Positions 2,949 through 32,234 of a DNA stretch of 32,234 nt are shown here, in pieces; the first letter of the stretch is position 1; each line of letters begins with the position of its first letter. The DNA lies in contig JAQBYJ010000066.1 of assembly GCA_027622555.1 (NCBI GenBank), forward strand, positions 1 through 32,234, in the 5' to 3' direction. The notes below the pieces were generated by a model. It saw only the letters and a list, made by a program, of their open reading frames with translations. It was not told the DNA's origin and did no database searches. Source of the DNA: Verrucomicrobiota bacterium (GTDB taxonomy: Bacteria; Verrucomicrobiota; Verrucomicrobiia; Opitutales; UBA2995). A program made the translations under genes and the position numbers.

Positions 2949-4756
2949 TTATTTGGCACGGTGATTGACGAGCATTTGGAATGGGATGCCTAAATCATGC
3001 TGGGATTTTTCCTGCATGCACGGCCAGGAAGCATCCGGATAGAATCTTGCCTTTAGCGAAATGAGGCAGACGCGCAGGGCCGCGAGACTGCAATTGAGGT
3101 TGAAGTTTTTTGATCGGGTACGATCTTCGCGCATACAGGCGTCGCGCACCCAATGATTGCGGCTCTCGCATCCTCCCCAGTGTCCTCGGGCGAATTCGGC
3201 GAATCGCTGTGCGCAGCCTTTTTGGCAAGGATGGCTGGAGAGGTAAAAGGAGACGCTGGGCTCTTCGCTTTGCTCGAAGCCGCTGGTGCGCCGGATGACC
3301 GTTAGGCTTCGCGCTCCCGGCAATCCCGCCTCTAGCGGCTCGAAGGGATAGACCGCGATTGCCCGTTGGTCGAGTCGTCCGTGACTGGCGTCGGGTTCTT
3401 CGATATGGGTAAAAAAGGGGTGGTTTGGGCCAGTTTAGAAGCGGCTTTATGGGCATGGCGATTCTCGTCCTTGAGTTGGAAAAAGTAGTCGCCCCGCGCC
3501 TTGAGAATCGCAGCGGCCTGGCCCTTGTTGTTGTTGAGCGCGTCACCGGTGATGGTCGCGTTTTCGAGGTTGCAGCTTTCGTAGAGGCGCAATGCGACTG
3601 TTTGCTCGCCCTCCCGTTTATGCTCTTCGCTTTTGGGCTTGTTGGCGGCAAAATCCACGGCGACGGGGGCTCCGGTCTCGTGATCGCTCAGGCACAGGCT
3701 CAGCGCGCGGTCGCGTATCCACTTTCCGTCGATGGCCAGCGCGCGCGGCAGCGTTCCCAGATTCGCTTGCAACCATCCGTTGAGGCAGCCGGCGAATTGC
3801 TGCGGATCGATCTGAATCAATAGATTGCGCAATGCGGTGTAGCTGGGGGCTTTGCGTGTTTTCGCGTCTTTCTTCCTGGGGAAACTCAGCCACTCGCGCT
3901 GGCTTTGGGTCAGGAACTGCCCGTAGCGCTGGATCGCCGCAAGGTTGTCGCGTCCGGCGAACAGCGCCATCGCCACGATGCTCAGCAAGGACGAGGCCCG
4001 GAACGTCCGATTGCTCCTGCGGGGATCCTCGAAGTGTTCTGCGAGATAGTCTTGCAAGGATTCGAGCTGGCCTTTCTTCAGGGGCAGGTCCCGCTCCGGA
4101 CTGTGCACATTGAGGGCCTTGCGGTAGGCCGGCGGCATGTCCATGCCCGTAAGGATGCGGCGGGCATTGCGATTGAGAGGCTTCAGCCAAAGCTTCTTCG
4201 GCCTGCCGTGCTCCTGGTAGTAGTCCATCCGGTGGCGGCGGAATCCCTGGGTCAGGCCGCACGGCCGCCACCCGGCGGCTTTGTAGCAAGTGCCTTCGAA
4301 TTGCTCTATATCCGAGAACGTTTCAGCCAGAACGGGACTGTATCCATACTTCAACTTCCAGTGCCCGGGCAAGGCGCGCACGGCCAAGGCCAGAGAGCGC
4401 GAGGCGAGGTTGGGCATGCGCGTTTCGCCCAGCACCAGAAAGCGGCGGTTCATCGCCACCAGGTTGAGGCGCTCGGCGCGCTGCTGGGAGGTCCAGCCAA
4501 TCCATTGCTCCCGGTCGGCCAGCTTCAACGCGGCGCTTCCCCAGTCCAGCAAGGCCACCCAACGCCCCTGGTATTCCACAGCCTGAAGCAGTGCGCGGCC
4601 TGTGCGCAAATCCCCCAGATAGTGCTGCTTGTCCAGCAGCTCTCCCGCTCGTTCATACTCGTGGGCTTCGAGAACGCGAACCGTTAACTCTTTCAATAGA
4701 AACACAGGCGGATCTGAGGTGAAAGCCGTGTTGGGTGTTTGGTTTTTCGAATTCAT
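2949..4756 (-). pseudogene. DUF4338-ISAs1 family transposase, interrupted by a -1 frameshift
   Basis: The gene reads from ATG at 4756 to a frame end near 3332, then continues in the -1 frame to the stop at 2949. The first ~190 residues form a DUF4338 domain (LLDKQHYLGDLRTGRALLQ, then YKAAGWRPCGLTQGFRRHR), also found in some defence proteins and often fused to ISAs1 transposases. The ISAs1 DDE region follows: AIDGKWIR and ITGDALNNNKG hold the two Asp residues. After the frameshift, ARGHWGGCESRNHWVRD carries the glutamate of the family's HWxxExxxHW signature, followed by ED and the terminal LxSLKAR segment. The gene is clearly more GC-rich than its neighbours, which suggests transfer. Either a one-base loss in a T7 tract made a pseudogene, or the slippery heptamer recodes the frame. 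No convincing terminal inverted repeats or target duplications were found. Confidence 0.85.
3410..3416 (-). other. T TTT TTA slippery heptamer at the transposase frameshift
   Basis: On the minus strand the codons CCT TTT TTA read in the upstream frame contain the heptamer T TTT TTA, which fits X XXY YYZ in the correct phase. A -1 slip gives TTT TTT then ACC, exactly the frame that encodes the conserved C-terminal end of the transposase. A simple deletion in a seven-T homopolymer would look the same. Confidence 0.5.
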
Positions 4757-7717: not shown

Positions 7718-7831
7718 ATTTTGGGGTTGTTAATGAGGTTTTATTAATCTGAAAGAATACCTGTTGTGGGTCGAGGAAAACTATAAAGGTCGGGCTTTAT
7801 CGCGGGCGTATCATTCCCACATAGAATCTTC

Positions 7832-7941
7832 CTCTTACTCGTCTTCCTCCTCAATTTCAGCTAATTGGGGAAATGAAAGCAAGGATGCCTTTGGTGTTAT
7901 GCACTTTTCTGCGTGGAGAAAAGTAGGAGGACGAGTAAGAG
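7832..7941. repeat. Imperfect 20-bp inverted repeat
   Basis: The arm at 7832-7851 (CTCTTACTCGTCTTCCTCCT) pairs with the arm at 7922-7941 at 18 of 20 positions, separated by 70 bp. It could form a long hairpin in the 3' region of the aldo-keto reductase promoter side, or be the remnant of a small mobile element. The second arm runs into the GAGTAA tandem repeat. Confidence 0.55.
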
Positions 7942-7974
7942 TAAGAGTAAGAGTAGGAGTAAGAGTAGGAGTAA
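7933..7974. repeat. GAGTAA/GAGTAG hexanucleotide tandem repeat (7 units)
   Basis: Seven consecutive 6-bp units: five GAGTAA and two GAGTAG, followed by a degenerate GAGGAC. This is a potential slipped-strand, phase-variable tract, but it lies between genes rather than in one. Confidence 0.8.
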
Positions 7975-8030
7975 GAGGACAGGTGACATTCAAGCCTGAC
8001 ACCCGAAACCTGACACCAATAAATTTCCCC

Positions 8031-9686
8031 CTACACACCAACCGCTGCCACGCAGGCTTCACAAGTCTTACGAATTCCCTGGAAGAAGTCGTTGCCTTTG
8101 TCGTCGACAAGAATGAAGGCCGGGAAATTCGCCACATCGATTTTGTAGATGGCTTCCATGCCCAGCTCCGGATATTCTAGAAGTTCGACTTTCTTGATAT
8201 TATCCTGGGCAAGGATGGCTGCGGGACCGCCGATCGATCCCAGGTAAAATCCTCCATATTTTTGACAGGCGTCGGTGACTTGCTGGCTGCGATTACCTTT
8301 CGCCAGCATGATCATCGATCCGCCTTTTGCCTGAAAGGGTTCGACGTAACTGTCCATTCGTCCGGCAGTCGTTGGACCGAACGATCCCGATGGCATACCT
8401 TCGGGTGTCTTGGCTGGACCTGCGTAGTAAACCGCATGATTCTTAAAATACTCCGGAAGATCGCCTTCAGTTTCCAGTCTCTCCAGTAACTTTGCGTGGG
8501 CGATATCACGAGCGACAATAATGGTTCCAGTGAGGCTCAACTGGGTTTCAATTTTCAAAGAGCTGAGTTGCGCGAGGATCTCTTTCATCGGACGATTGAG
8601 GTCCACGTTTACCACTCCTTTGTAGTCGGTTTCACGCAGATGATCGGGGATGAATCGACCCGGATTGGTTTCGAGCTTTTCGAGCCAGATGCCATCCTTG
8701 TTGATCTTTCCTTTCATGTTTCTGTCTGCCGAGCAAGAGACGCCCATGCCAATAGGGCAGGAGGCTCCATGACGTGGAAGACGGATCACGCGCACATCCA
8801 AAGCAAAATACTTTCCACCAAATTGTGCGCCATAGCCGAGTTTGCGTGAGTCTTTTAACAAAGCGTTTTCCATCTCAAGGTCGCGAAAGGCCCGGCCATG
8901 TTCGTTACCCGTGATGGGCAACTCGTCATAATATTTGGTCGAAGCAAGTTTCACGTGTTTGAGGTTGGCCTCCGCGCTGGTTCCGCCGATGACAAAGGCA
9001 ACATGGTAGGGTGGGCAAGCGGCTGTTCCCAGAGTCCCCATTTGCTCAAGCAGAAATTTTTCCAAGGCAACCGGTTTTAGAACGGCCCGGGTCTTTTGAA
9101 AGAAAAAGGTCTTGTTTGCCGATCCTCCTCCTTTGGCGACGAAAAGGAATTTATATTCCATCCCCTCGGTGGCGTAGAGGTCGACCTGGGCAGGTAAATT
9201 GGTGCCGGTATTTTTCTCCTCATACATAGTGAGGGGCGCATTTTGGGAATAGCGAAGATTCTCTTTTATGTAGGTGTTGTAGACGCCTCTGGAGAGGTAT
9301 TCCTCGTCGTTTACCCCGGTCCAGATTTGTTGGCCCTTTTTGCCCATGATGATGGCCGTACCTGTGTCCTGGCAGAACGGAAGAATGCCGTGCGAGGAAA
9401 CTTCAGCGTTCTTCAAAAGGGTCATGGCCACGTTGCGATCGTTGTCTGACGCTTCGGGGTCCTCAAGGATCGCCGAGACCAATTCCAAATGTTCTGCCCG
9501 CAGAAAAAAAGCGATATCGCGCATTCCCGCTTGAGCGATCAACGTCAGGGCCTCCGGGTTTACTTTCAGGATGGGCTTTCCATCAAATTCACTTTCTTCG
9601 ACATACTCGGAGCTCAAAAGCGCGTATTCTGTTTCATCTTTTCCGAGAGGAAAAGGATCCTGGTAGTGGAATTCGGGAGTGGGCAT
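8031..9686 (-). CDS. Class I fumarate hydratase (iron-sulfur)
   Basis: A 551-residue homodimeric [4Fe-4S] fumarase interconverting fumarate and (S)-malate in the TCA cycle, in the cytosol. The three cluster cysteines are present at Cys105 (LPFCQDTGT), Cys224 (TAACPPYH) and Cys318 ([11 protein letters not shown]), the same numbers as in E. coli FumA. The N-terminal alpha domain and the C-terminal beta domain (from about residue 380, with [11 protein letters not shown] and the [10 protein letters not shown] segment) are fused, as in FumA/FumB, and the length is typical. The cluster makes the enzyme oxygen- and superoxide-sensitive. The gene stands alone, upstream of the repeat-bearing gap. Confidence 0.95.
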
Positions 9687-31147: not shown

Positions 31148-31631
31148 TCAATCTTCTGCAGTCAGGAAATCGCCGGGCTTTATCGCCCTGGGAGTAATCC
31201 GCACTTTTCGAATGGCACCTTTAAACCAGAAAACGTTGTTGATGCGTACTCCCAGAGAAGTGCGACCAGGACCTTGAGGTTTGAAATCAACTTCTTTACC
31301 AAGCTCCATTCGACCGTTCACATAATGTTTAAATATCTTACCATCCATCACGATCGCGGCATGATACCACGGTCCGATCTCATGAGTGTCACCTACCGCA
31401 TACATCGTGTTGTTCTGTTCACCGGTTTGCATGAATGCGTCCATAAACCATTGGTTTCCCTCAACTAATCTGGTTTCGAACATTACTCGTTCTTCCGTAT
31501 CACCAACTTTCATGTGGAAAAATCGTTGCTCTGCTGGGCCACCTGCATCCGGACGAAAAATTACTTCAACGGTGAACTCGGTCATCCCGGTCAACGGATG
31601 GATGGGCGGAAAAATCATTATCACAGAACTA
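31148..31631 (-). pseudogene. LamG/concanavalin-A-like domain protein, 5' part missing at the repeat array
   Basis: The C-terminal ~156 residues of a LamG-fold protein. HPLTGMTEFTVEVIFRPDAGG, then NQWFMDAF, WYHAAIVMDGKIFKHYVNG and GRTSLGVRINNVFWFKGAIRKVRITPRAIKPGDFL are the usual strands of secreted LamG_3-type proteins. Homologues carry a signal peptide and roughly 40-60 further residues before the HPLTG segment; here the frame runs into repeat 1 of the array at 31632. An ATG at 31618 lies in frame but has no ribosome binding site and starts mid-domain. The frame stays open through the first two repeat units, giving a peptide with APTPSFRRQALVT twice, which is clearly not native. The gene therefore looks split or truncated. 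Confidence 0.75.
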
Positions 31632-32234
31632 GTCACCAGTGCCTGTCGGCGGAATGAGGGAGTTGGGGCTCCTTGGCCGTGGTGGTGACGAATTAGCTTA
31701 TGAGTCACCAGTGCCTGTCGGCGGAATGAGGGAGTTGGGGCAGCATATGAGATTGAAGTCATGGACTTGAAAACGTCACCAGTGCCTGTCGGCGGAATGA
31801 GGGAGTTGGGGTACGTTTAGCCAACATTGGATGGGACGCAGGAGGTCACCAGTGCCTGTCGGCGGAATGAGGGAGTTGGGGTAAACACTAACCGTACAGA
31901 AGTAGAACTGAAGTCACCAGTGCCTGTCGGCGGAATGAGGGAGTTGGGGATAAAAGAACACCACATAACCACCCTACAAATGCGTCACCAGTGCCTGTCG
32001 GCGGAATGAGGGAGTTGGGGTTGCCAAGGAGCTCAAGTTGCCATACAATGGCAGTCACCAGTGCCTGTCGGCGGAATGAGGGAGTTGGGGTTAACTCCGG
32101 AAATGATGGATGTGATCGAATCCCATTCCGTCACCAGTGCCTGTCGGCGGAATGAGGGAGTTGGGGCGTTTAGCTGATGTATACCAGCTTTTTCCCGAGT
32201 CACCAGTGCCTGTCGGCGGAATGAGGGAGTTGGG
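31632..32234. CRISPR. Direct-repeat/spacer array (CRISPR-like), 9 repeats and 8 spacers, truncated by window end
   Basis: A 37-bp repeat starting GTCACCAGTGCC and ending GAGTTGGGG occurs at 31632, 31704, 31775, 31845, 31913, 31984, 32054, 32130 and 32199 (the last cut one base short by the window end). All copies are identical. The eight spacers are 35, 34, 33, 31, 34, 33, 39 and 32 bp and share no general similarity. The repeat is much more GC-rich than the surrounding DNA. Its only internal dyad is a weak TGCC-TGTC-GGCG hairpin, and neither end has the GAAAC/GAAAG end common in CRISPR repeats. No cas gene, leader or tracrRNA is visible within the window; they may lie to the right. The orientation is unresolved. 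Confidence 0.8.

Follow-up and report, generated by a model that had tools for sequence, protein, structure and literature searches.

The window, the whole stretch of DNA that was analyzed, is one entire contig of 32,234 bases (G000:C66) from an assembly of 6.0 Mb in 238 contigs, estimated to be 95.8% complete. Nine copies of a 37-bp repeat and eight spacers occupy positions 31632-32234, at the right end of the contig, and a second, shorter array lies on another contig of the same genome (C207, also L012). The features concerned are as follows.

31148..31631, minus strand: LamG_3 (concanavalin A-like) gene, flanking and not part of the CRISPR, probably 5'-truncated where the array begins
31632..32234, minus strand: CRISPR array, trailer (leader-distal) end, with the 37-bp repeat CCCCAACTCCCTCATTCCGCCGACAGGCACTGGTGAC; strand taken from the cas2-leader-array order of relatives
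31669..31703, minus strand: trailer-nearest spacer, 35 bp, presumably the oldest of the eight, given the orientation
31741-31774, 31812-31844, 31882-31912, 31950-31983, 32021-32053, 32091-32129 and 32167-32198, minus strand: the other seven spacers
Contig C207, 116-300 and 301-4989: second CRISPR array and, directly joined to it at 301, a BREX-type pglX without its first half

Repeat copies in the window start at 31632, 31704, 31775, 31845, 31913, 31984, 32054, 32130 and 32199, and the mutually unrelated spacers between them measure 35, 34, 33, 31, 34, 33, 39 and 32 bp. A preliminary description of an array of 37-bp repeats with eight unique spacers of 31-39 bp running off the end was borne out; its nine perfect copies are, more precisely, eight that are complete and identical and a ninth that lacks its last base, where the contig stops. 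Near-identical short repeats (about 23-50 bp) alternating with regular, unique spacers of similar size define a CRISPR array, and this is what was found. Nine identical, regularly spaced 37-mers cannot be the product of chance. A gene for a repetitive protein was considered and rejected, the repeat spacing of 68-76 bp being no multiple of three, and so was a minisatellite spread through the genome, which the preliminary description had entertained: this type of repeat occurs in only two places of the 6.0 Mb.

Elsewhere on the window contig, a minus-strand ORF at 3332-4756 joins a DruA-like domain (PF14236) to a DDE_Tnp_1-associated transposase domain and is probably a transposase; its end looks frameshifted, with an overlapping frame continuing leftward. 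In the region 7764-8180, simple-looking repeats (TCTCACCCTCACCC-like) at about 7990-8060 fill part of the gap to an aldo-keto reductase gene, and the C-terminal end of a fumarate-hydratase-like ORF (8031-9686) runs against this stretch.

The only other place in the genome with this type of repeat is contig C207 (5087 bases), which carries three copies of GCCCAGCTCCTCCGATCTGCCGACAGGCACTGGTGAC and what looks like a degenerate fourth copy further out. The sister repeat is identical to that of the window at 30 of 37 bases, and the last 19 bases are exactly common to both. An origin of the spacers from the host genome was rejected, since the array stretch matches its own genome only at this sister array. 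Comparison of the spacers with phage and plasmid records gave no match better than E ~2, and an exact search of IMG/VR for the cores of three of them was negative; the 54-repeat array of a related genome, described below, likewise gave no phage match. These negatives say little about targets, as the viruses of the lineage are probably poorly sampled.

The repeat itself was then compared with other sequences. Rfam gave no match, the full 37-mer was found in no other genome contig of the collection searched, its 26-mer core in no viral contig searched, and a literature text search for the core returned unrelated papers only. By contrast with the 5' half, which has only 5-8 of 18 bases in common with cas-linked repeats, the last 19 bases are found again, unchanged or with one or two changes, in arrays of other genomes of the order. 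Searched for exactly in a 257-Gb genome collection, this 19-mer turned up in two arrays, one of 54 repeats in an Opitutales MAG (L028) and the other at a contig end of a Puniceicoccaceae MAG (L027), and besides these at four single sites, roughly as many as chance would give. When one mismatch was allowed, 373 genomes of the order yielded in addition arrays of 27 and 7 repeats in G047 (L071; 34 copies in total) and an array of 3 repeats in G077 (L072). A single one-mismatch site in G245 was set aside as not being an array, and G168 and G289, which apparently are the genomes of L028 and L027, as contig places and copy counts agree, were not counted twice.

Three of these related loci carry cas genes next to their arrays. 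In L028, an operon encoding Cas10/Cmr2, Cmr3, Cmr4, Cmr5, Cmr6, Cmr1, a CARF-adenosine deaminase, a CARF-PDDEXK protein, Cas1 and Cas2 is followed by the array. On the L027 contig the order is array, Cas2, Cas1, Cmr1, Cmr6, Cmr5, Cmr4, and L071 contains Cas10, Cmr3-6, Cmr1, a CARF-adenosine deaminase, Cas1 and Cas2, with both arrays within the same 20 kb. Judged by family models, the three loci are type III-B CRISPR-Cas systems. The stretch read around the L072 array held no cas genes. The CARF-adenosine deaminase effectors lie at 11595-13568 of L048, which covers the same contig as L028, and at 2931-4826 of L071; the former was recognized by PADLOC as CARF5--CARF_ADA (E 2e-158), and the CARF-PDDEXK protein is encoded beside it. 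Extra Cas1 genes were seen on other contigs of the relatives G008 (C1, C11) and G009 (C134, C185), each of which thus has more than one CRISPR-Cas system.

The relatives also provided the orientation. A leader stands between cas2 and the array in L028, in L027 and at the shorter (7-repeat) array of L071, and the repeats there read toward ...GCCGACAGGCA(C/T)TGG(T/A)GAC as one moves from the leader into the array. Next to the first repeat, a TTACA..CCGCA element is common to the leaders of L028, L027 and the longer (27-repeat) L071 array, which also have a CTGCCG motif further upstream in common. The cas2-leader-array order indicates that the transcribed strand of the window array is the minus strand, on which the 3' end of the repeat is ...GGCACTGGTGAC. 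In this orientation the window shows the trailer end, and the leader, together with any adjacent cas genes, would lie to the right of 32234. The TTGGGG-type G-rich end is then the 5' end of the repeat, and the impressions of a G-rich end and of a missing standard terminus arose because the repeat had been read on the other strand. The hairpin is as weak as had been noted (MFE -6.7 kcal/mol, z -0.46).

Combined, these results indicate, with a probability of about 0.9, that the window carries the trailer-side end of an ordinary CRISPR array with a repeat from the family that the type III-B (Cmr) systems of the order (Opitutales/Puniceicoccaceae-type) use, a subtype assignment that leans on the 3' half of the repeat and on kinship, because the 5' halves have so little in common. 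The locus had been put forward as an unusual subtype or a different system of repeats and variable spacers, and as the strongest candidate in the window for an undescribed one. The ends of the repeat, as first read, do look atypical, Rfam gave no match and no cas genes are in view; however, the same 3' half forms CRISPR repeats beside cas1, cas2 and standard III-B cmr genes in three genomes, and its own genome has the repeat in two places only, with unique spacers. A non-CRISPR system or a minisatellite is consequently so improbable that the candidate was struck off the list.

In type III-B systems, a crRNA with a repeat-derived 5' tag guides the Cas10-Cmr complex to complementary RNA. If active, the window array would be transcribed from its minus strand and the transcript cut into crRNAs, whose 5' tag would come from the conserved 3' end of the repeat, namely its final 8 bases, CUGGUGAC. 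Such crRNAs would load the Cas10-Cmr complex, which would be guided to complementary RNA, cut the matching RNA and signal to CARF effectors. The array alone, without cas genes, cannot work.

The genome was also surveyed for cas genes. Queried by tblastn with Cas proteins from a relative, the window gave no match, in agreement with the preliminary description, although this absence from 31 kb means little because those 31 kb lie on the trailer side. Models for Cas1 and Cas2 had no match in the binned genome and did match in relatives and controls; models for RAMP proteins likewise had none, with matches in the positive controls (the L028 and L027 genomes). A single Cas10 query from L048, run without a control, had no match, and the Cas6 model (PF10040) matched neither this genome nor the relatives, and is uninformative. 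Thus, the Cas10 (Cmr2) and Cmr RAMP genes that a type III-B system has in the same genome were not found in the 95.8% complete assembly, nor was the Cas1-Cas2 pair that often, not always, accompanies them. The preliminary description would have recognized ordinary CRISPR by a repeat of known subtype lying beside a standard cas operon; such an arrangement exists in the relatives and was not found in the window's own genome. The array is accordingly classed by its III-B-associated repeat and not as a III-B system, and the suggestion that it is an orphan is right as far as the assembly shows: within it the array is orphaned, by true loss or by incomplete binning, an appearance due at least in part to the contig ending inside the array.

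A true relic, in which the lineage has lost its cas genes and rearrangements have left both arrays as decaying remnants joined to truncated genes, would be a sub-case of the array reading, concerning its present state and not its kind. The absence of Cas1, Cas2 and RAMP matches from a 95.8% complete genome speaks for it, as do the surroundings of the arrays. The LamG_3 gene in the window has a homologue with about 60 more N-terminal residues. On C207 the array runs at base 301 directly into what remains of a BREX-type pglX, namely its second half, starting at about codon 583 of a Runella homologue; the first half was not found in the assembly in a search run without a control. The pglZ-like gene on the same contig ends early, its match to the profile stopping about halfway, so that the second array stands beside a broken BREX locus. 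Both arrays hence abut interrupted genes at their trailer ends. Against decay, all complete repeats in the window are identical, suggesting recent upkeep, and the contig breaks on the leader side, exactly where the cas genes of relatives lie, so that the bin may just lack them. A relic is thus quite possible, at somewhat less than even odds; with the contig broken there and an incomplete assembly, genuine loss cannot be distinguished from sequence that is missing.

These junctions would ordinarily be explained by misassembly at repeats or by rearrangements in defence islands undergoing decay. That arrays of this family might move or insert within genes, by ectopic formation or transposition of a whole array, is very unlikely. 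Right after the shortened pglZ-like gene, at 4985-5060 of C207, there is a tandem short unit (AAGGAAATAAGGGGTCATATCTTG), possibly the end of a mobile element.

For the order, these results place on record a type III-B-associated repeat family with a near-constant 3' half and a variable 5' half. They also illustrate a general pitfall: an array that a contig end cuts on its leader side will pass for an orphan and, if the wrong strand is read, for an atypical one.

Among known systems, one of the closest counterparts is the array of the Opitutales MAG (JAFGCZ010000014.1; L028/L048), which like that of the window has a 37-bp repeat with identical last 19 bases and unique spacers, of 34-43 bp there versus 31-39 bp here. 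There, unlike in the window, the 54 repeats come after a complete cmr operon, the genes for two CARF effectors, cas1, cas2 and a leader; the repeat also differs in its 5' half, with 7 of 18 bases in common. The Puniceicoccaceae MAG (REEB01000180.1; L027) has the same last 19 bases, there adjoining cas2, cas1 and cmr genes; the 5' half of its repeat again differs from that of the window, and its contig is cut within the array and within cmr4. With orphan (isolated) CRISPR arrays the window has in common an array without a cas gene in the same assembly; the difference is that its contig ends on the leader side, so that its orphan status is not proven.
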